Below are positions 1 to 64,000 of a stretch of DNA of 64,000 bases, piece by piece. Position 1 is the stretch's first letter. Each line of letters opens with the position of its first letter. The notes under the pieces are model-generated. The model saw only the letters and a program-made list of their open reading frames with translations, was not told where the DNA came from and searched no databases. The DNA comes from Niebla homalea (taxonomy: Eukaryota; Ascomycota; Lecanoromycetes; Lecanorales; Ramalinaceae): assembly GCA_019925105.1 (NCBI GenBank), contig JAHGAU010000038.1, positions 414,642 to 478,641 on the forward strand. Reading direction: 5' to 3'. The position numbers and the translations under genes were made by a program.

Positions 1-1
1 A

Positions 2-1153
2 GAGACTGAGGGTTCTCTCATTATGCCAGGAGGCAGAGCCGCTCTCTACACAATAAAACCTACTATCGGGATCGTCTCACAACAGGGCATTGTGCCCGTG
101 TCCTACCTATGTGACGCGGTAGGACCAATGACCAAGAACGTACTAGATCTCGCGAACTTGATGGATATTATCGTGGATCCTTTAAAGACGCAGGTACCAA
201 ATGGCGGCTTTGCGTCTGTGATGACGGATACTTGGGCGGACTTGAAAGTTGGTGTACTTGATCCCACCGAGTGGAATTACCCGGCTGTTGTCATAAAACC
301 TAACGAAGGGGCAACGGAGCAAATGGTACACTGGTCACACTTTACCCTCCCGCCCTTGCTAACAGTCGAACGAGTAGAACGCCGAGTTTCAGGCTGCTTA
401 TGCTAAGATCGAAAACATGGCGAAGGCGTTTCACAAATACGTCCCATTGCCCAATGGCGACGAGTTGGAGTTTGAGGGAGGCGACTGCCTCAGCACTCTC
501 TGCAGTATTAAACCCTCCGATCATGTTAATGCGTGGACAACGAGCGCCTTTGGCTGACACATTCATAGCTGCCTATTTCAAGCAAGATTTCGAGAATTAT
601 ACGTCTGGTTTAGAGAATTCGGCCGTTTACACCCTTCAGGGCTTAGTCGACTTTAATCGCAAGCATTCCGACAAGGAGCTTCCCCCAAGTGAGTCGGCTC
701 GATGGATGCTTGCTTGCACTGCTTACTAGTCCAGGATACCCTAGACAAGACAAGCTCGAGAAGGCACTCAACTCAAAGATCAGTGCCAGTACCCTCGACA
801 CAGCCCTGAAGCATGCTAGAGACGTCGGGAGGACCAAGGGAATTGACAAAATTCTAAAAGAGTATGACATAGACGTCATTATTGGGCCCGCGGAAAGTTC
901 GATGACAGACATTGCATCAGCAAGTGGTTAGCAAGAATTTTTAAATTTCTGGCAAGGGGCTTTTGAATTGACATACGCCACAGGCTACCCTATCGCAAGC
1001 CTTCCATTGGGATATCTAGATTTCAATGGGCGTCCTTTCGCCATGGCCGCTTTAGTTTCTGGTCACCAGGAGGCTACGCTGGTCAAGGTGCAAAGTGCTT
1101 GGGAAGCCACATTTCCTCCTAGGCGTCCACCACCCAGAGAAAATTTTGAATAA
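2..1153 (+). CDS. Amidase-signature hydrolase, 3' part (5' end outside window)
   Basis: Amidase-signature enzymes hydrolyse amide bonds with a Ser-cisSer-Lys triad. The window opens inside the signature: ETEGSL at 2-19 matches the segment carrying the nucleophilic Ser, followed by PGGRAALYTIKPT and GPMTK. I rebuilt five exons that splice in phase: 2-325, 393-504, 569-688, 735-926 and 984-1153 (306 codons with stop). Introns are 46-67 bp with GT donors and AG acceptors, for example GTGAGT at 689 and GTTAGC at 927. The last exon encodes GYPIASLPLGY, the usual conserved C-terminal amidase motif. The N-terminal half and the catalytic Lys lie upstream of the window. No frameshift is needed, so it is probably functional. 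The substrate is unknown. It lies about 1.9 kb from the UstYa gene, so cluster membership is possible but unproven. Confidence 0.85.
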
Positions 1154-3017: not shown

Positions 3018-4095
3018 TTAAGGCGGAGGATCAAGCCCAGGAATATCACTCGGCCTTCGCATCTGGTGGTCGGTCCCGGGGGCTTGGTGCTCTTTACTCC
3101 ATGCCACAACGCCATCCCAATTGCGGCATTTGTGCTGGGTGTTGAAGTTCGGCCACGGTGTAGGCCGCCTGGCAACCCAGGTGTGGGTGATGACCCCGAC
3201 ATCCACGTCGCAGGTGAGCTTTTGCCGGAGCATTTCAATACAATGGTCTGAAAAGATAGGCTACTTGAGCGATCTCATGTACTAAGATTGAAGGAGGGGT
3301 TGGGGTTGCAAGTACTGACCGACGTGAGTACGGAGCAAGTCTGGCGGATCGGTAAAGGTGAGGGAGCGATTTTGGTAGTAATCTGGATAAGTATACTCGC
3401 GTATCAAGTTCTACAGGATGAATCGAAGTATGAGCAATCATAGCTATTGTTGTCGTTCGACTTTCCGATACCACGACTTTTCTTACGTACCAGGCAGTGC
3501 ATCTGATGGTATACTTCGAGGCCGGCGAAAATGCCACCTCCTTGACTCTCATTCAGCCGGACGACGTTCTCCGTTAGAGGGTGACCAAGCTTCAGATATT
3601 CTTCTTCAGATATGCTAAAGGCTTCGGCTATCGACGAAGATCAGCTCGCGTTCACCCGTGGAGAGAAATGACAGTACTTGTTTCCTTCCTCACAAGAGTC
3701 TCCCATGCGGCGTCAAGAGAAGGATTGGGTTCCCCCCTGAAGGGAGAAGGATAGTCTAGCGTGCCATTGAAAAAGATGTCTTCATAGGGAAGAATGGCCG
3801 AAAGCGCAGGGGCTATTCTACAGTTAGCATGATGCCAACATTGAGCGTTCGCGCACTAACACCAAGTGTTTTCTTGACGGGTACAATCGATAGCAGATGC
3901 AGAGCTTGGTCTGAAAAGGAAGAATGCCAAGACGCCTGCTATGGCAGCAAGATAGATTGCATGTGTGACCCATAGTAGGTGAGCTCGGAATTTCTTTGCT
4001 CCCTGAGGCGTATCATAATAGTATCCATCTGCGGACAATAGAGGCTCGGCTGATAACTTGCTGGCAAGTGCGGTGTGTTCCTTGTGATAGTCCAT
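3018..4095 (-). CDS. UstYa-like oxidase (DUF3328), candidate RiPP-modifying enzyme
   Basis: UstYa-family proteins are membrane-anchored, probably copper-dependent oxidases that cross-link or cyclise ribosomal peptides in ustiloxin-type pathways. Five exons splice in phase: 4095-3861, 3812-3678, 3627-3491, 3410-3320 and 3247-3018, giving 275 residues, normal for the family. An N-terminal cytosolic stretch is followed by one membrane segment (about residues 43-60), then WSPAL, the family motif FFNGTLDYPSPFRGEPNP, and both diagnostic HXXHC motifs: HQMHC (164-168) and HVDHC (198-202). A C-terminal WPNFNTQHKCRNW follows. The start at 4095 is the first ATG; the frame upstream opens only with TTG. 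It is transcribed away from the repeat precursor at 5587, with 1.5 kb between the two starts. Family assignment is firm; the substrate is inferred from the neighbour. Confidence 0.9.
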
Positions 4096-5586
4096 CTTGA
4101 TGTACTCACTGGAGTATGAGGCGTTGTATATCAAATCTCATAGAAGCAGAGAAGCACGACGTTCGAAAAATGAATCGACTAGTTTTGTTCTGAGTCTGAG
4201 CCAAAATCACGCTCCTTCTCAAACCACAAGCTCAGATTTACAAAGCTGAAGCTCACCTCCGGCGCAGTGCCATTGTTCCATCCTTATGCGGATGGAACAT
4301 AGGGTAATAGTAGCAGTGGAGAGTACCGCAGTGAGTAAGCGGCGAATGTTAGTGTGAAGTCAGTACAGAAGATCACAACTTCAACGCGGTTGAGGATGCC
4401 AGGATTGATGTCCGATGCAGGTTTCTGACTACGATATGCATGGTTTCAATATGCGAGCCCAGGCACTTTAGCAATGGCCGTATATGAAGCGTAGAAGCAC
4501 CCTCTCACCGCTGGGGACGAAGACCGTCGCATGAGTACGACGCGAGGAACTTCCTGATGAAGCTTGATTGAGGCGGACATGCAAGCAAAGTCTCGCCCAG
4601 AATTGCCTTTCTGATAGTAGCTTCTCCACCTAGATGCGTGGTGGCATTAGTTTTTCAGGGATGCTAGTTCATCTTGAGATTAGTTTGAACAATTGCTCAT
4701 CTGAATATCAATAGATTGAAGCCAAGCGAAGATTCAGTTGCTGACGATGCAGCAGATAGAAGGCAAGCGAAGGCTCAAACTTGCTGACTATGCAGCAGCT
4801 TATGCATAGAATTAAGAAGCGAAACAAATAAGCAAAGCTTATAAGGCAGCGGTGTACTAGTAACCAGACCAGACCTTTTTACGCTAAAACCGTCACAGAC
4901 GATCGACACCGTATTCGTGGAGGCATCGGCCTTATCCATCAGCGGTCAGGCCTTTCTTGAGCCTCAGAGTGACTGCATCTTGTCCGGTCATGCATCAAGT
5001 CGTTCTCTCATTAGGCAACTCACTAGCAATGATTTCTCATCTTCTTGCGGCGCGCCCCATAGACCCCATCTTGGGTATAGTTCGTGGCTTCATCCCAACA
5101 TCGAACGTCATGTATATGGTGGCTTTTGGACGGATGTAGCCTATCATGATGACCCTCGCTAGTCAATGGACAGCCGCTCTGGTCCCATGCACCAATTTGA
5201 AAGCGGAGAAGCCTGTGACGCATTTGGATATGACATCTAGATCATCATTCCAATGACAAGGTTCTCCCAGATGGATCCATGGACATATCAATTGGCTCGC
5301 TAGTAGTAGACCTGCACCATCTTCCCCATCCCAAGCGGTAAGCCGGATGCAAAGAAGCCTCGAAGAGGCCTAACACTAATTCTTGCTGCTTAGCAAGAAG
5401 CAGACTGGTCTCAGCATGTATGATTGCAGGAACGGTGACAATTCTATAAAAGACCGCTCCTTCTGCTCCAGAATGTTCCCTATCCCTTCACTCAAGTACA
5501 GATTCCAAACATCCCAGACTTTCTTTATATATGAGACATTCCGAATCCTCTCTTGAATTCCAAGGAATACGAGTCACGCTTTCAAC
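4096..5586. other. Divergent intergenic region between UstYa and precursor genes
   Basis: This 1.5-kb region should hold both promoters. A short frame at 4957-5139 encodes a hydrophobic stretch but has no recognisable motif. I found no further HXXHC-bearing frame, so there is no second UstYa copy here. Confidence 0.5.
5445..5452 (+). promoter_or_regulatory. TATA box of the repeat precursor gene
   Basis: TATAAAAG lies 135 bp upstream of the ATG at 5587 and is followed by a C/T-rich stretch typical of fungal transcription starts. Such a consensus TATA box suggests a regulated, strongly inducible gene. Confidence 0.5.
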
Positions 5587-6092
5587 ATGCACATCCGACC
5601 CATCCTTGCCCTTGTGGTTGCGTCCGCTGCCTTGGGCATCGCAGCACCCATCCTTGAGCCACGCAAGTAGCTCAGTCCAACTCGGCGAATGTTGCTGATG
5701 GATTCGTAGTTGATGTCGTCAAGCGTGAGCCCCAGGAGAACGACCTGAAGTACAAGTACGGCAAATACGCCGAGGAGAAGCGTGAGCCCCAGGAGAACGA
5801 CCTGCAGTACAAGTACGGCAAATACGCCGAGGAGAAGCGTGAGCCCCAGGAGAACGACCTGCAGTACAAGTACGGCAAATACGCCGAGGAGAAGCGTGAG
5901 CCCCAAGAGAACGACCTGCAGTACAAGTACGGCAAATACGCCGAGGAGAAGCGTGAGCCCCAGGAGAACGACCTGCAGTACAAGTACGGCAAATACGCCG
6001 AGGAGAAGCGTGAGCCCCAGGAGAACGACCTGCAGTACAAGTACGGCAAATATGCTAGCTCTGAGGAGGCAGCGGAGGGCACTGCCGTCTGA
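5587..6092 (+). CDS. Secreted Kex2-repeat peptide precursor (dikaritin/ustiloxin-type RiPP candidate)
   Basis: ATG 5587 opens an N-terminal signal peptide (MHIRP, then hydrophobic LALVVASAALGIAAP). The frame stops at 5668, but removing a GC-AG intron (5663-5709: GCAAGT donor, GCTGAT branch-like site, GTAG acceptor) joins it in phase to an exon at 5710-6092, giving 152 residues. After a first Lys-Arg come six units of EPQENDL(Q/K)YKYGKYAEEKR; the last ends in an acidic tail without KR. Kex2-type cleavage after each KR would free 19-mers containing YKYGKY. Known dikaritin precursors have the same layout: signal peptide, repeats, Kex2 sites and a Tyr-containing core. The UstYa gene nearby supports a cyclised Tyr-rich peptide. 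It could instead be a repeat pheromone or other Kex2-processed secreted peptide, but the UstYa neighbour makes RiPP likelier. The intron is inferred. Confidence 0.8.
5727..6055 (+). repeat. Six 57-bp in-frame tandem repeats
   Basis: Units start at 5727, 5784, 5841, 5898, 5955 and 6012; the sixth diverges after the GKY codons. By eye the first five differ only at two sites: unit 1 has AAG for CAG (Lys for Gln), and unit 4 has CAA for CAG (silent). Near-identity at DNA level points to recent expansion or gene conversion. Confidence 0.95.
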
Positions 6093-7248: not shown

Positions 7249-10200
7249 TCATTGCATTTCCATCAGCTCATCAAAAGCATTCATTCGTTGTCCCTCTGGA
7301 CGTCGTGTTGTCCCTTCCAACGCTGCAGCGAATTCCTCGCAATCTAGAAACACCCTCTGTAAGCGAATGTCTCAATAGGCATGAAAGATCAGACTCACCT
7401 CTCACAGTCTCAAAAGCAATAGTCACAGGTCCGACCTTCTTTCCCCCATCTTCCTTCCTCTCTCTGGAATCCCTTGCCACAAGATTCGCCATATCGATCT
7501 TCCTCCCTCGATCATACGGCAGCTTCGGTAAGGTTGCCCGATTGCTATCCCGTTTTTGATCCAGTGCATTCCTAGGAACTGCCATGCTCAACCACTTGTC
7601 CTCAACTTTGTCATCCCATCGGCTGATGAGCCGCACACTATTTCCCTTGAGCCAGAGTTGGACTTCTGCCGCACCTTTATTGGACCTAACACTGCCGAAC
7701 GGGCGCTTCGGTGGCGATTTGGTGGTGATGTACCCGGCGCGACGAGAGAAGATGAGAGTAAAGTCTGAGGTCAGTGAAGACATGAATGCGGCTGCGACAG
7801 ATTCTTCGGTAAAATCGATGCTGGTGTGGCCGATCTTTTTGTCGCAGTGGGAGAATTGAGGGGGCTCGTCGAGGGGCGGCTTGTAGAGCTTGTCCACGTG
7901 CGTGGAGATGTAGTCTGTGTAAGAAAGTTGAGGCAGCTTGACGCGACGAGCAGCACGATCGTAGACAAAATCGATGTCTCGGTATAGGTAGAAGAGATCG
8001 GAATATTTCCAATCGTGACGAGTGCGGGTTAGCATGAGAGCTTTGTACTTCTTCTGGTTGGGTTCATAATCCGATATCATGTATACCGAATGGGCTTCAG
8101 AATTGCCAGTCCAATCATAGATTGGCTGGTGTACAAGATGCAGAATCGTTTTCTCGAAATCGTCCGCGTCTTGAGCGTTGCGGAAAAGAAGGGACAGGGC
8201 CATGTTTGGGTTATGATCGTCGTAAACATAGGTATAGATTCGATGGTAACTCCCGTCAGTCCTGTTGCCGCTTTCGTGGGTACAGTCAGACCATTTCATC
8301 TCAACTTTACGTGCTATGTCACTGTCACAGCGAATTTGGACACGCGAGAGCGGGAGGAACAATTCAGAACACCACGGCCTCTCTTCGCCCGCAGAGGACG
8401 AGATGACGAGACGGCGGGTCGTACGCCAACCTTCTTTGCATGTAGTTTCTAGGATGCGCAGATCACATGACTGAAACCGTTGCTGAGGACTCATCTGCTT
8501 CATGGTGTCGGCTTTGAGCTGCTCAAAAACCTCGACTGATCGACTGAAGAGAAGAGTCTCCGTCGCGGACTTGAGCTGTCTTGGTAATCGACGTCTGACT
8601 GCTTCGAAGTATGCTCTAGGGATGTACATGAAGTTCTCAAGATCTTCTTCGTTGGTGAAAGCAACCGTGATGTTCGTGGAACCAAAGTTGAGGGGTATCG
8701 CTTCCCGTGGGCGCAGGCCGGCTCCAGCAAAGGGACTATTTGGAACCTCCTTTTCTTGCAGATCTTGATCGGTGAAATCCCTTGTCAAGCCAAGAGTGCC
8801 ACTTTGATTACACAAGGTTACTTTCGGCTCACTCTCGCCTTCCTTGATGGAGAGCAAAAGCATATACGGAGCTCCCTTTGACCTCATCCTATGACTTTTG
8901 CGGCCAATGGCTGCATTGACGAATGTGCGGAATAGTACCTTTTCGTCCTCTGCTCCAGCATCTTCCTGCTCGACCGTGACCCAACGCCCATTCTCTAATC
9001 CAGGGAACATCTCTTCTCCCTCGTAGGTCTCTTCCTCTGGTTGCAGAAACTCCCAAATATTCAAGTTTTGCTCTAGCAGGCCACTCTTGTCAGGAGCATC
9101 CACTGGCTGGAAACCGTTCAAGTCCTCGCTGATACCATCGGAAAGATTGTGAAACAGCTTGCGATTTTCATGAGTCATGAGAGAGGAGACATTGTCGCCA
9201 TGCAAGATGACATTATGAAGAATCCATGATGCTTTTAGCAAATCGACGTAGGCCTGGTTCACTGCCGTGGCGCCCTCACTAGACACACTGAAGCTTACGT
9301 GAGAAGTATATCGCCGATGGTCATCGTCAAGTCTTGTGTTATAGCGAGCCTTGAGCAGCCACCAAGTCGCTACTCGAAGCCAGTCCTTGGCATTGAGCCG
9401 CCTGATCTTCAATTCATCTTCAGCAAGCTGTTCAAACCGTGCGCGCAGAGCCTCATCTGGCTGATGCTGAGGATGCTGCCTGACAATGCGCAATGGTTTC
9501 GCTGATTGTTCCTTGCGCCGAATCTTTTTTAACTCTTTCATAGCTTCTGCAACGACCTCTTGTATTTCAGGATCCTTACTTCCCAGACCATGAGCACTTG
9601 GTTTGCGAGCTGATTCCGAGACGTTTGGCATTAGTCGCTTTCCAGGTCGCCTCTGGGGGTCATAATACGAATTGAGATCGTCGTCATCCTCCTCCTCCTC
9701 ATTATCATCATCGATCGCTGTGGATTTCCCAGGAGGGCCCGATTGGCTGGGTGACAGCGCTTTAGGCACGTTTAAGTTCGAACTCTTCCTCATTCTTCCC
9801 ATCGCTGGAGCACCTTTCTTGCGTGGCATAGACCGGCCATCCTCTGGATCGTCTTCATCATTTGGGGGAGTGATGTCTGATGAGGTGGTGTCAGCGAGCG
9901 TAGAGCCTGTGAATGCTCGGGATAGGCCTTGCAGTCCAAGACCGTCTGAGTCTGGTGTCTCGGCGCGGGCTGTAGAAGTAGTTCGAGTTTTACGAAGAGG
10001 AGCGAGTTCGTCCAGTTGATCCTCGTCTTCTTGTTCTTGCTTTGCTCCGTCAGCACCTGGAACCTCTTGTCGCTCCAATGCCTTCATCATGGAGCTCTCG
10101 ATTCGTGCGAGGGAGGAGCTAGCAATTTCAAGGTCAGCCAGGATCTTGAATGTCCGGGTCTGGAATGTGACGTACTTGCCTATGGAACTCATGCATAGGC

Positions 10201-10603
10201 TAATGTTGCACGTATGAGCCATGATCTGGCTTTTTAAAGCGTTGATCTCCCCTTGCTTCATCGAGTACTTGATCCTCCGCCAGAATTGGATGCCTTCGTT
10301 CAAGCCCAGCTCTCGATACTTCATGGTCAACCTCTTCAGCTTTGACAGAGTATGAAAGCACGAGTGAAGGCATCTTTCCAGTGTCTCCTTCCTGTTCTCG
10401 CCAATGCGCTGGAAGAACGATTTGTCCGAGTTGATGTCATCCCTGAGTGTACGCAAAACACCTTGCAGTGAGCAGAGCTCATTCACAAGCTGCCTGAAGT
10501 CGTCGGGTGCTTCTCGTGCGACCAAATAGCAGCCATGATAAAGGTCCCAGGCGAGCTTTGTCAATGCCAATATATCCCCCACACCCCAATTGATCATTGA
10601 CAT
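7249..10603 (-). CDS. Large protein with STAND-type fungal N-terminal domain, unknown function
   Basis: ATG 10603 opens a 1066-codon exon (to 7406). A 49-bp intron (7357-7405, GTGAGA donor, TTACAG acceptor, phase 0) leads to a short last exon ending at 7249, for 1101 residues. Without the intron the frame runs into an unrelated tail; with it the end reads as an acidic helix with DCEEFAAAL and MNAFDELMEMQ. Residues 1-160 are helical (DILALTKLAWDLYHGCYLVA) and resemble fungal N-terminal domains found on STAND/NLR-like proteins. Next come an acidic Ser-rich linker with DDDNEEEEDDDD (about 300-320) and a large C-terminal half with beta-rich stretches. No NACHT, NB-ARC or P-loop is visible. It is divergent from the gene at 11597, which has a similar N-terminal region. 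Confidence 0.8.
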
Positions 10604-11596
10604 GATGGAAGTTTTGTGTGTATTTAAATTGGTATTAGCCAGTCATCTCACTGCCCCGAATCCAACAGACAGGTGCTTGGGTTCGGGTAATAAGTTGGCT
10701 TTTGGTCTACAGAGCCGCATAGGGCCAGCCCAGGTCCGGAGCGGGGTTGTCTGTGAGGAAGCGATCGAAAGCAGTACCCTTGACTGGCCTTATGCAGGTA
10801 GCTGCAGCTGGATACAGGACCGTGTGATTCGTGGTGCTGACGAGTGCCGATCCAGACAGATATGTCTACATGATTATGAGACGAAAAGAATCATAAGGCA
10901 AGGCAAAGGCTGAATGATAAGAAGTGACTCAAAACCTAAGGCTCCAACGTAGGTAGGTACCTTACCTTATGATGTTACAGAACGATTCGCGGAGTCATAG
11001 GGCATGGAGGGGGCCGTTCTAGCCGCAAAGTTAGTGGCTCTCCGTGCCCCTTACAACACACAGGCTTCATAGATGGATAGGTAAGGTACTTGACGGTATC
11101 ACGTGCCCTAAGAAAGACCACATACAACGCAAAACCTTCTCAATATTAATGGGTGCAATGACGATTGTACGCTCAAATAGGATCCGTTGCCGGCCGCTCG
11201 CAATGAAAAAGAACGCAGTCAAAACCCTCACCTAGCATCATTGAGCCACTGAGCCACAGCATCGTAGCAACGTTTTTGTGGGCCTGAAAACGGTCTTTCA
11301 GTCATGTGCAGTTTACGGGCATGAGAGCCTAGCCGGTCAAGGCAAGTCGTCAAAAGGCCTCGAATCATAGCTCACGATTTAATGCGGCTTTCAGCTGAGA
11401 TGAGGCGGTGCTATCAGCTAGTCGGAGGCGCACGACGCCATTCATTTGAATACCCGCAGGCATCATAGCCTTCTTTCTTCATTTTGTGTATTGGTCAGTC
11501 CCGCGAGCAGAGAAGAGTCAAAAGGTGTCACTAAAAGAAACGCAATCGTAGTCGCTCCATTAGCTTAGAAGGATCAGTAACGATGCATGCCTTGAA
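10604..11596. other. Divergent intergenic region
   Basis: This is about 1 kb between two divergent genes with related N-terminal domains. It contains short direct motifs (gtaggtaggtacctta near 10950) but no coding signal I can support. Confidence 0.45.
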
Positions 11597-12997
11597 ATGG
11601 AGGTCGTTGCCGCGGCTGCCAGTATCGCTGGTATTATCACCTTGGTTTTTCAAAGCATTGACGGTCTCGTGAAGTTCAAAGAGCTCTTTGACGATGCCTC
11701 ATCCGCGTCGAGGACGATAAGTCGATTAATAGAGGACATCAATGGCCTCATCCAATTACTCGAAGATGTTCGCAATGTGGCCGAGCACTTCGAGACCAAA
11801 AGGGGGGAACAGCAGAATTTTGCATCTTTGGATTTGAAATTGGCGGATTGTTCCAAGGACATCCATATCTGGCTCTCGACAGCCAGAATCCTGCGACCAT
11901 CCGCTGAGCACGGCGGAAGAGCTTGGTGGAAGAAAATTCGCCTTGCTGTCAACAAAGATGCGATTCAAACCATCAGGAACGAGATTGGCCGACATCGCCA
12001 GCTCATCTCTCTCAGTCTTTCCGTGTTCGGAAGGAATATCGACATAGATACGTCGGAGCAAGTCCATCGCATCGGCAGCTCCATGTCGCAGTCATTGTCC
12101 AATCATGAAGCGCACGAGCAAGCTCTTCAAAGGATTGAGAACTACTCACGGGCCAGCCTTCACAGTTCTGCTCACAGTATCCAGAGCATGGAAAATATCC
12201 GGCATGAGCTCTCGAGGCTAGAAGCATTGATCAACAGCTCTTCGCGAGACGGCCACGTCGCGAATAGTAACGAATTCTCGGCCACCCACTCAGAAGTGCT
12301 CGATGCTCGAATATCAACTTCCTCTGCAGCACCAGTATCAAGTAGTGCCTGTGCCGCTGATGCGCCACCGGGACCTCCAAGGCAAACTTCCGAAGAAGCA
12401 GTGAGCCTAGGAACGAACAGAGTCCCCGTTGCTTCCTCATCGAGGGCTTCTTCATCCAAAACCGGACGGAGCACACCAAAAGTTCAGGCAGAGGCCGAAA
12501 TTCGAAGGGAAGAACTCAAGTACGAAAGCAGCTTTCTGTACGCATCCTACTCTACGTCTCGAATCGCCTCGAAACCATCCCAGTCTCAACAGAGCGGAGC
12601 TGCTATCCATGACTTGCTCTCTGAGTCGCTCGCCATGATGTATCCCCCATGCGTGGTGGACTACATTTCCGTTCGGCAGCTCCTCAAGCATTGCGAAAGC
12701 CACACAGCTTTCCTTACCGATCAACCAACAATCAAATTTCAGAAGGCTTCTTCGGATGCAAAGGTGCCTCTCAATGCTCTTCAGGAGCGTACCAAGGAGC
12801 TCCAGGAGGCTTCTCGTTCCCTGCGACAGCATTGCCTTCAATCTGGGTACCCACTTATGGAGCTCGACATGTTGTTAGGATCACATCCTCGGCCCCAATT
12901 ACGTCGAGTCGATGGGCTCAAGGGTACATATGGAGCATATATAGATAGTGATGAAGATGATTGGGCCGATGCATCCGAAGGGTTGAATGCTTCTTAA
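11597..12997 (+). CDS. Protein with fungal STAND N-terminal (PigL_N-like) domain
   Basis: This is an uninterrupted 466-residue frame from ATG 11597. It starts MEVVAAAASIAGIITLVFQS and continues with the amphipathic helices (LVKFKELFDDASSASRTISRL, IQLLEDVRN) of the fungal N-terminal domain found at the front of many STAND proteins. Here it has no NACHT or repeat module: residues 230-330 are Ser/Ala-rich and disordered, and the end is acidic (DSDEDDWADASEG). It may act as a stand-alone signalling or adaptor domain, or be a truncated NLR relative. It is divergent from the 7249-10603 gene. The domain call rests on pattern resemblance. Confidence 0.75.
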   Translation: MEVVAAAASIAGIITLVFQSIDGLVKFKELFDDASSASRTISRLIEDINGLIQLLEDVRNVAEHFETKRGEQQNFASLDLKLADCSKDIHIWLSTARILRPSAEHGGRAWWKKIRLAVNKDAIQTIRNEIGRHRQLISLSLSVFGRNIDIDTSEQVHRIGSSMSQSLSNHEAHEQALQRIENYSRASLHSSAHSIQSMENIRHELSRLEALINSSSRDGHVANSNEFSATHSEVLDARISTSSAAPVSSSACAADAPPGPPRQTSEEAVSLGTNRVPVASSSRASSSKTGRSTPKVQAEAEIRREELKYESSFLYASYSTSRIASKPSQSQQSGAAIHDLLSESLAMMYPPCVVDYISVRQLLKHCESHTAFLTDQPTIKFQKASSDAKVPLNALQERTKELQEASRSLRQHCLQSGYPLMELDMLLGSHPRPQLRRVDGLKGTYGAYIDSDEDDWADASEGLNAS

Positions 12998-17282: not shown

Positions 17283-17785
17283 CTAACCATCCCATCTATC
17301 TTCTACCTCTACCTCTACCACTACTTCTCTTGCTAATCCAACCTCCGCTCCGCTTCGCTCCACTCCGTCCTCCTCCTCCTCTTCTTCTCTCTCTACCTCT
17401 ACCTCTCTCCCACTCCGCTCCGCAGATATTCTCCTATCTCTACTTCTACCTCTCTCCCGCTTCGCTCCGCTCCGACTTCCTCCTCCTCTCAACTCTCTAC
17501 TTCTACCTCTACCTCTCTCCCGCTCCGCTCCGCAGACATCCTCATCTATCTAACTCTACTTCTCTCCCGCTTCGCTCCACTCCGACCTCCTCCTCCTCTC
17601 ATCTCTCTACTTCTACCTCTACCTCTCTCCCACTCCGCTCCGCAGACATTCTCCTATCTCTATCTCTACTTCTCTCCCGCTTCGCTCCGCTCCGACTTCC
17701 TCCTCCTTCTCCTCCTCCTCCTCCTTCTTCTCCTCCTCCTCCTCCTCCTTCTCCTCCTCCTCCTCCTCCTCCTTCTTCTCCACCA
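17283..17785 (+). repeat. Pyrimidine-tract minisatellite (110-bp period) and (TCC/TTC)n
   Basis: About 500 bp is almost purely C/T on the plus strand. Three tandem copies with an exact 110-bp period are marked by CTCCGCTCCGCAGA ending near 17424, 17534 and 17644. They are followed by a TCC/TTC triplet run at 17699-17783. Long frames through it on both strands are pure low complexity (Pro/Leu/Ser one way, Arg/Gly/Glu the other) and I do not treat them as genes. Confidence 0.85.
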
Positions 17786-18010
17786 TAGGTTTCTAGGCTT
17801 CTTATCATTCTCGAGCTCGACCGACGGCGACGACCGGCCACCCTCGACCTCGACCACCTCGACTTCGATCACCCTCAACCTTGAACACCGACCGAGCGAC
17901 GACAGCAGAATGCTGCAAGGCGAAGTGTGCGCACTGGCAAGGACTTGCTCAAGGGTGAGTGCCTCGCCCAGCTCAATGACATCGAATGGCTGACATATAG
18001 TACCAGACAG

Positions 18011-18126
18011 GCAGCATGGAGATGGAGCTTAAGGGTGTGTACTGAATGATGGAGGATACGGTTGAGCCAGAAGCAGCATGGAGATGGAGCTTTGGGGTGT
18101 ATACTACATAATGGAGGATACGGGTA
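18011..18126 (+). repeat. 62-bp direct repeat, two copies
   Basis: GCAGCATGGAGATGGAGCTT starts at 18011 and again at 18073, followed by similar GGTGTRTACT and ATGGAGGATACGG blocks. Copy 2 ends in GGGTAAGT, a good splice donor; copy 1 has GGTTGAGC at the same place. Confidence 0.8.
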
Positions 18127-61887: not shown

Positions 61888-63090
61888 TCTCACCTCTTCC
61901 ATCCCTTGTAAAAGGGGGGTGGAAGGGTGGGACACCAGCGTCGGGCTCGCACTTCTACGCAGTGCTGGTGATTAGTAGCCCATATCTGGGTGAAGCTAGG
62001 CCGAGCTCCAATTCTTCAAAAGCCATGTCGTCGCAATATGCCTTTAAACTTTTGATCTCTACCTCAAGGAAAGCGCCAACGAGCCGAACCTTGTGGCCAT
62101 GCTGGCAGTCAATAATATACCTGCGTCTGGGAAGGCTTCGATCGTTGGCAACGACATCGCTGTTTATGATTAAGGCTGAATTGATCCTCAATCGAAGGGA
62201 GGCGGGGGGTTATTGGACCGACGGTTGAATCTTTCATTTACTCAAACGGCGCAAAGGAGTAATAGCCCAACGTTTGAACTTTGCTACGGTATGACTTAGG
62301 AGAGGCAAGGACGTGATCAGAAACGGGAAAAGGCAATGGATTACAATGAAGATAAAGGCCAGACTTGGAAAGAAGTACCCCAGTCCAGCGCTTGCGGAGC
62401 AATGCTGCTCATTGCGGTCAACTCAGGATAGATCACAGTTGCATCGTAAGGCCAAATAGGGGGAAGGGAGGGTCAAGCATGGCACAGGGCGTGGGAGATT
62501 TTCCTATCGCAGCAATTACAGGTCGGACAATTGAAGGATCGCACGGCTTGGACGATGTACGATGTTCGATGATTGCTTTGTGGGCGGTGCTTCATACGCA
62601 TGCTAATTCTACTGTGTCTCCTCACGCAATCCGTGCCCGCATGCTCGATGAATGACAGACAGCCTAGCATAGAAGTCCACTGTATGTCACTCTCTTGCCC
62701 GGGCTGGCTTCGTTGTCCTCTCTAAATCAATGGACTCTCGAATGCGTCTGTTGTACCTTCTCTTTTGATGCTACTGGTCCCCCAAAGTACGGCCACCATA
62801 ACGAGCCTTCCTCACCCAGTGTCTGGACGGAAACACATCAACAGTCTCGTGAAGATCTCAACCTGAGAAGACCCCTCGTCCGTGAGGTGGTGAATGTCTT
62901 GGGGGATGCCTGTATGGAACGGTGCAGTCTGAAGTGCCATCTATCTGGCTACGTTATTGTCTTCCAAGGTTCCTTACCTATCTTCAATGCCGAGTGATGA
63001 AGCTTCGCATCCATACTGTAAGCATTGGCCGCAAGAGAGGGAGTTGAAGTGACTGGTTTGCCTCAGTCCCTCAGCCGCTGCGGAGAAAGA
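61888..63090. other. Intergenic, right side of the island
   Basis: No supportable gene. Short frames (62365-62655, 62695-62997) lack motifs or introns that would extend them. Confidence 0.45.
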
Positions 63091-63094
63091 GCCC

Positions 63095-63149
63095 GGCCCT
63101 AAGCCCCTTCGGGTTAGGGCCCGCATTTAAGCCCCTTCAGGTTAAATGC
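63095..63149. repeat. Twin hairpins with shared loop, TTAGGG-like stem
   Basis: Hairpin 1 has stem GGCCCTAA/TTAGGGCC (63095-63102 with 63114-63121) and loop GCCCCTTCGGG. Hairpin 2 follows at once, with stem GCATTTAA/TTAAATGC (63123-63130 with 63142-63149) and loop GCCCCTTCAGG. The loops differ by one G-to-A change. They sit at the boundary of the AT-rich block. Confidence 0.85.
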
Positions 63150-63165
63150 TGATAAATAGGCTTTT

Positions 63166-64000
63166 TTTTTACGCGTTTAAGCTTAAGAGCCCGTATTTTT
63201 ATCTGATCCGCCTTATTTTAATAATATATTATAGAAATTTTTTTACTTTATAAAAAATTTATTATTATTTATATTTATAATATAATTCTATACTTATTAT
63301 AATTACGATATTATATTAATTTACTTTTATTTCTTATTTAAAATTTAAATATTTAATTATAATAAGTTTTTTTTTTTATTTTTTATTATTATTTTATTCT
63401 TTTATAACGTAATATAAAAATTCCTAGAAAGTTTACGGAATCCCAACTTATAAAGAATAATAATAACCTTTTTTTAACTTAATTTTTTATTATATAATAA
63501 GTACTTAAGTTTATAATAAACGTTAAAATTAATTAAAGTAACCGTAAATACCTTTATATATAATATTTTAATATTATTTATCGCCTTTAAGAACTTAAAA
63601 TTATTAATATAAAATTAATAATTAATCCAATATTATTTACGTATATCGTTAATATAATTAAATAAAAGTTTAATTTTAAGTTAAAAACGGAATAAGTATT
63701 AATATTAAAAAGTTTTTTAAAAGATTAATTAAATATAATTATAATTATAAAAACGGGATTTAAGAAAAATATATTATTTTAAGTTATATTTTTTATATAT
63801 AAACTTATTAAAAGTATTTTAATTATTATACCTTTAAAAACCTTAAAAAAAGAATAATATTTAAAAATAACTTTTATCGATAATTATTAACCTTTTATAT
63901 TAAATAACGATAATAATAATATTAATAATTAAAGGTAAATACGTAAAGGATACTTTATTTACGGTATTACGATCTTATAAAGTAAAAACGTTATATTAAT
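63166..64000. repeat. RIP-degraded AT-rich block (runs off window)
   Basis: The sequence becomes almost wholly A/T. By my eye count it holds about 18 CpG but only 2 CpA and 1 TpG, with abundant TpA. Loss of CpA/TpG while CpG persists is the signature of repeat-induced point mutation of repeats in Pezizomycotina. No frame survives. The original element cannot be identified. Confidence 0.85.

Follow-up and report, generated by a model that had tools for sequence, protein, structure and literature searches.

The precursor locus

The window, that is, the whole 64,000-nt stretch of DNA analysed here (contig 38:414642-478641, reaching the contig end at 478,641, in a genome of 50.57 Mb and 52 contigs), carries a tandem-repeat gene and, beside it, a gene of the UstYa/DUF3328 family. 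The main features, in window coordinates, are the following:

1..1153, plus strand: 3' part of an amidase-family gene (PF01425) starting upstream of the window, 3' end placed by eye
3018..4095, minus strand: UstYa/DUF3328 gene (PF11807) of five hand-chosen exons
4095-3861, 3812-3678, 3627-3491, 3410-3320 and 3247-3018, minus strand: the exons of the UstYa gene
4096..5586: intergenic region between the precursor and the UstYa gene
5587..5662, plus strand: precursor exon 1, putative signal peptide MHIRPILALVVASAALGIAAPILEP, with ATG at 5587, a hydrophobic stretch and an AAP end
5663-5709, plus strand: proposed 47-nt GC-AG intron, with donor GCAAGT, branch-like GCTGAT and acceptor TAG
5710..6092, plus strand: precursor exon 2, comprising the six Kex2 units, a short tail and the stop codon
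5721..6062, plus strand: the six 57-bp/19-residue units, KR-EPQENDL[K/Q]YKYGKY-AEE, the last one ending in ASS

The repeat ORF (window 5658-6092, plus strand) encodes six 19-residue units of the KREPQENDLQYKYGKYAEE type, which start at 5721, 5778, 5835, 5892, 5949 and 6006 with a 57-bp period, and Tandem Repeats Finder described the array in the same terms (period 57, 5.8 copies, 98% matches, score 650). Lys-Arg opens each of the six units, and the hexapeptide YKYGKY is present in all of them. The amino-acid change between units is found just before the core, where unit 1 has Lys and the others Gln; further DNA differences are a silent change in unit 4 and an altered end of unit 6. The units are thus near-identical in DNA, which would make the array young or homogenised. 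The repeat ORF matched no Pfam family above the cut-off, and a protein search of its own genome at E up to 10 found no paralogue of the array, the sole match being itself.

Gene model of the precursor

The putative signal-peptide ORF starts at the ATG at 5587, runs for 27 codons (counted by eye) and stops at 5668-5670, in a frame different from that of the repeats. No one frame therefore stays open all the way from 5587 to 6092, the span given in the original prediction. The start codon at 5587, the stop codon ending at 6092 and the six 19-residue YKYGKY units, each preceded by Lys-Arg, are found as had been predicted; as for the signal peptide, the hydrophobic, AAP-ending peptide at 5587 exists (mean Kyte-Doolittle hydrophobicity of 2.79 over 11 residues), but it would be joined to the repeats only via the proposed GC-AG intron. 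Neither this intron nor the neighbouring UstYa gene had been mentioned.

Since exon 1 and the repeats lie in separate frames, they form one gene only if 5663-5709 is spliced out. GT-AG and GC-AG introns were enumerated under the requirement that they join exon 1 to the repeats free of stop codons, and 5663-5709 was the sole frame-restoring candidate sparing exon 1 through its AAP end. Frame-keeping GT-AG introns starting at 5614 or 5617 were rejected, as they cut into the hydrophobic stretch; GC donors at 5636, 5641 and 5644 spare this stretch and lose the AAP end, scoring at most 2.2 versus 6.2 for the chosen intron on a simple donor/branch scale of our own, built on consensus forms of both sites and not on a trained model. 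When the sequence separating the signal peptide from the repeats was shuffled with dinucleotides preserved, an equally good intron arose in 20 of 3000 cases. Few fungal introns lack a GT donor; we take the 98.7% given for fungi in PMC7072748 as the GT-AG share. Moreover, when the repeat ORF is aligned with its database relative P0001 (see below), the start of the latter (MDTADRKVSNND) coincides with the start of exon 2 (LDVVKREPQEND), which fits an exon boundary at this place. From these sequence features we infer a predicted gene in which exon 1 and the repeats would be joined by a GC-AG splice, its product being a secreted-type precursor of 152 aa (MHIRPILALVVASAALGIAAPILEPLDVVKREPQENDLKYKYGKYAEEKR...).

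The neighbouring UstYa gene

Searched with PF11807, the genome as a whole gave 33 matches, two of them in the window (3087-3410 and 3482-3631, minus strand; in-situ E values of 4.2e-21 and 2.3e-6), and no second DUF3328 match on contig 38. The exon model, with four GT-AG introns of 48, 50, 80 and 72 nt picked by hand, yields a protein of 275 aa with one hydrophobic helix near its N-terminus and both HxxHC motifs (HQMHC at residue 164 and HVDHC at 198). The spliced protein matches the Pfam family with an E value of 5.8e-57 over positions 9-220 of the 220 in the profile, and the gene reads as intact. No solved structure matched it at E up to 1. The UstYa and precursor genes are divergent, with start codons 1.5 kb apart, and both promoters probably lie within 4096..5586.

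In CctR, an enzyme of the DUF3328 family, the two HxxHC motifs form a binuclear copper centre, and activity is lost in His/Cys alanine mutants, as described in PMC12435403. The same source attributes hydroxylation and halogenation to DUF3328 proteins too, so that cyclisation by the present enzyme is not assured.

Sister regions in the same genome

The 33 PF11807 matches were reduced by hand to 22 UstYa regions, neighbours within a few kb being merged (e.g. C24). Kex2-bounded repeat arrays are clear in five of these regions, the window included, and weak in one; none was found in the other 16, so many UstYa genes of this genome have other or undetected partners. The arrays outside the window are:

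L021:7418-7824, plus strand: sister array, repeat ELYPAPDLGRIKVDD
L022:5653-6050, plus strand: sister array, repeat VVYSWSLPEE
L023, about 3641-3223, minus strand: sister array, repeat GNFEADGMLAVGNDAESSYATKP
L025:2869-3400, plus strand: sister array, repeat GPIAYPDAY
L029:7297-7515, plus strand: weak, degenerate array close to a UstYa match, its DADAA units bearing Lys-Arg, seen in the strict scan only

All five clear arrays contain Tyr in the repeat, and four of them, all except L025, are divergent from the nearest UstYa match. The plan of exon 1 recurs upstream of the four sister arrays, so that in 5/5 cases splicing could attach an ATG exon containing a signal-peptide-like stretch to the repeats; this exon ends in AAP in 4/5, and the donors are GT in all four sisters. 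The splice search at the sister arrays considered only upstream ATGs followed by a hydrophobic stretch and had no shuffle control. The best splice candidate of the weak array in L029 has no branch-like site. All five precursors appear to carry the signal peptide on a short exon separate from the repeats, and searches based on ORFs would be expected to miss them for that reason.

The strict tandem Kex2 scan covered L019-L038 and the window, and a looser one L001-L008, L019-L038, the window and L040-L042; L001-L008 and L040-L042 (the latter being three UstYa regions) were thus covered by the loose scan only. Antisense and other-frame echoes of the arrays (window, L023) and an Arg/Ser-rich low-complexity hit in L031 were dropped before counting. 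As a control, 96 kb without UstYa genes were taken (L019, L020, L001-L008, which had been picked by a sequence pattern, and window 12-64 kb), and no credible tandem Kex2 array was seen in this small, non-random sample. Poly-Arg at window 17669-18028 and a scattered three-fold NAEA in a 485-aa ORF at window 34572 were dropped from it.

These loci also bear on the possibility that the precursor is out of frame in the strain or the assembly and represents the relic of a pair, a reading which overlaps with the preferred one as to the kind of system. A relic would fit the lack of one continuous open frame, and of any GT donor found to bring the two frames together without loss of the signal peptide. 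Nevertheless, the frame is restored by a GC donor backed by branch-like and acceptor sites, a solution matched in only 20 of the 3000 shuffles, and splicing at a comparable place, with GT donors, is available to the four sister precursors; the repeats lie in a frame free of stops from end to end, and the UstYa gene reads as intact, all of which makes a relic unlikely.

Relatives in protein databases

Among 5.77 billion proteins, the repeat ORF found a sole relative, P0001 (ENA, 90 aa; E 6.3e-8). As the search reaches only relatives of similar length that share short exact words, this number is a lower bound. The units of P0001 read NNDSKYKYGKY, NNDLKYKYGRY and NNDLKYEYGKY, with cores YKYGKY, YKYGRY and YEYGKY, and the pattern common to the nine units of both records is ND.[KQ]Y[KE]YG[KR]Y. 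Tyr1, Tyr3, Gly4 and Tyr6 of the core are constant in 9/9 units, positions 2 and 5 vary slightly, and the linkers and spacers differ between the array and P0001. Constant Tyr and Gly with diverged linkers would be expected from selection on a Tyr-cross-linked core, one relative being thin evidence for it. A protein search with a two-row alignment (A1) returned P0001 again and P0002 (E 9.9), which was taken as a chance match.

For the UstYa protein, its last 106 residues retrieved 12 proteins, all of them PF11807 and 48-79% identical, from a database that may contain few other fungi. Three of the 12 carry a name (Xanthoria sp., Letrouitia subvulpina and Squamulea squamosa) and come from metagenome-assembled genomes. 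Letrouitia subvulpina and Squamulea squamosa belong to the Teloschistales, within the Lecanoromycetes, a class of mostly lichen-forming fungi, and Xanthoria is also placed among lichen fungi. Coming from metagenome-assembled records and a database perhaps poor in other fungi, these names give a weak lead to a lichen-fungus host. When 19 UstYa regions of the genome were compared, the window protein was the best match for 11/12 relatives, by a small margin in the case of P0014, and P0006 matched region L033 about equally. None of the 12 UstYa fragments comes from a contig with the 13,354-base length of that of P0001, and no link of P0001 to a UstYa gene was found, in a search that saw proteins of about 58-186 aa sharing words with the query.

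Scanning viral contigs with alignment A1, and bacterial and archaeal genome contigs with the UstYa alignment A2 (built from all of the 12 fragments except P0014), yielded no relatives, as expected for a fungal gene.

Comparison with known systems

The closest parallel is found in asperipin-2a of Aspergillus flavus, which is made from the precursor AprA with a single UstYa homologue, AprY; as described in PMC6514808, AprY is essential, a sequential oxidative macrocyclisation has been proposed for it, and the product is bicyclic through Tyr side-chain ethers. Both systems combine one UstYa-type gene with a repeat precursor whose core is a Tyr-rich hexapeptide, FYYTGY in asperipin-2a and YKYGKY in the present array. 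The present core differs in being dibasic, with Tyr at positions 1, 3 and 6, and the present locus in having an amidase gene nearby and no NmrA match: among the best-scoring candidates, 0 of 27 genome matches to NmrA (PF05368, isoflavone-reductase type) fall on contig 38.

Kex2-cut repeats, a UstYa-type oxidase and Tyr in the core are likewise shared with ustiloxin (UstA with UstYa/UstYb, the phomopsins being similar). The ustiloxin core is YAIG (PMC6514808), and its cluster contains two DUF3328 proteins and a tyrosinase, as outlined in PMC7329392 and PMC12048977. Here, in contrast, there is one UstYa gene, and contig 38 carries 0 of the 11 tyrosinase matches of the genome among the best-scoring candidates. 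Accessory genes of the ustiloxin and asperipin type are thus not seen.

In general anatomy and neighbourhood the locus resembles the KEPs with DUF3328 neighbours described in PMC7329392, where the frequency of DUF3328 genes is highest immediately beside the repeat-precursor genes and Tyr occurs in 65.6% of the repeats with DUF3328 nearby versus 38.2%. The same search logic has been applied in Venturia (PMC9632046). The strings YKYG and YGKY are absent from the main text of PMC7329392, whose supplementary list may include the sequence, and a literal full-text search of a library of open-licence papers found no core strings of the YKYGKY type. With regard to lichen fungi, PMC12048977 surveys 111 genomes, and its passages on the UstYa clusters of Clans R1 and R2 report no conserved repeated region. 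These clans resemble the present case in a DUF3328 protein with two HxxHC motifs and possibly in the fungal class, and they differ from it in that an explicit repeat precursor exists here.

A further alternative is a repeat protein cut by Kex2 whose peptides would serve in unmodified form, as a pheromone or another secreted signal, its UstYa neighbour being a coincidence. P0001 does have EAEAEA spacers of an alpha-factor-like kind, EAEA spacers occurring in yeast alpha-factor. When compared by eye, the core resembles no pheromone that we know of. Repeat precursors as a whole have a DUF3328 neighbour in only 22% of 7878 fungal cases, which would leave room for such a protein; nevertheless, almost all pheromone precursors lack such a neighbour, according to PMC7329392. 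Here the UstYa gene is adjacent, and Tyr-bearing arrays accompany 5/22 UstYa regions versus none credible in the 96-kb control. Unmodified peptides are therefore held to be quite improbable. The locus might also encode a structural or cell-wall protein built of repeats, or the ORF might be driven by the repeats and yield no peptide product. Slippage can expand arrays such as this one, with six units near-identical in DNA, yet Lys-Arg at every unit, the signal peptide, the UstYa neighbour and the retention of the core in P0001 while its linkers diverge make this reading very improbable indeed.

Proposed biosynthesis and significance

The reading preferred to all of these is a predicted two-gene RiPP pair of the dikaritin type, consisting of the repeat precursor and the adjacent UstYa copper oxidase, to which we assign a probability of about 0.84. 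The array with its Kex2 sites lies beside a UstYa gene with both motifs, and the Tyr/Gly pattern is kept in the one relative. The dikaritin-type interpretation, already put forward in the original prediction, is well supported at the sequence level by the adjacent UstYa gene, by the core pattern of P0001 and by the four sister loci of the same build. The prediction had suggested looking for repeat precursors next to DUF3328 genes: such a gene is indeed present in the window, divergent from the precursor, 1.5 kb away and with both HxxHC motifs, and Tyr-bearing Kex2 arrays occur in four other UstYa regions of this genome.

The pair would probably yield a putative small cyclic peptide, for which secretion, cleavage, cross-linking, ring pattern and biological role are all inferred. 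The two-exon message would be translated into a precursor whose signal peptide takes it into the secretory pathway, and the membrane-anchored UstYa-type copper oxidase would then cross-link the tyrosines of the six YKYGKY cores oxidatively, a step proposed by analogy with asperipin-2a (FYYTGY, AprY). Kex2 would cut after each Lys-Arg, and trimming peptidases, of the Kex1 and Ste13 type, would free the product, a small cyclic peptide of which each precursor could supply as many as six copies. With no other modification assumed, the computed [M+H]+ of linear YKYGKY is 821.419, and 819.404 or 817.388 with one or two oxidative cross-links; for the longer Kex2 piece EPQENDLQYKYGKYAEE the computed mass is 2103.951, less 2.016 per link.

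What is new is the core and the split gene, the kind of system being already known. The locus offers a concrete precursor-enzyme pair, small enough for co-expression of two genes, with a core of three Tyr and two Lys. Furthermore, several pairs in one genome allow UstYa sequence to be matched to core sequence, and, if the host is a lichen fungus, the finding bears on those UstYa clusters for which PMC12048977 describes no repeated precursor. A wider proposal, which we offer tentatively and regard as rather doubtful, is that of a conserved family of tri-tyrosine, lysine-bearing bicyclic peptides with the core Y[KE]YG[KR]Y, for which one copper oxidase would suffice. The family would be part of a set of five or more UstYa-precursor pairs in a single fungus, perhaps a lichen-forming one, and published surveys of lichens would have missed the precursors owing to the short intron between signal peptide and repeats.

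Other features of the window

Beyond the UstYa gene, as seen from the precursor, the amidase-family gene spans contig 38:413868 to about window 1153 on the plus strand, with PF01425 matches at contig 38:414571-414918 (reaching window 277) and 413868-414197. It is a possible cluster member, either peptide-tailoring or unrelated. Pfam was also run on ten more ORFs flanking the precursor/UstYa pair, and 6/10 were matched: a mitochondrial carrier, TMEM208/SND2, an FAD/NAD oxidoreductase, an amidase piece and two PigL_N. The PigL_N ORFs, at window 7274-10642 (minus strand) and 11564-12994 (plus strand), scored 28.1 and 24 bits with a cut-off of 27.2, a kind of match seen in the N-terminal domains of fungal NLR-like proteins. 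Pyrimidine-rich tandem repeats, with 110-bp and TCC units, occupy window 17350-17781. The GC content at window 62000-64000, the contig end, is 0.35 versus about 0.48-0.57 in the other 2-kb steps, and this end is perhaps mutated transposon or subtelomeric DNA.
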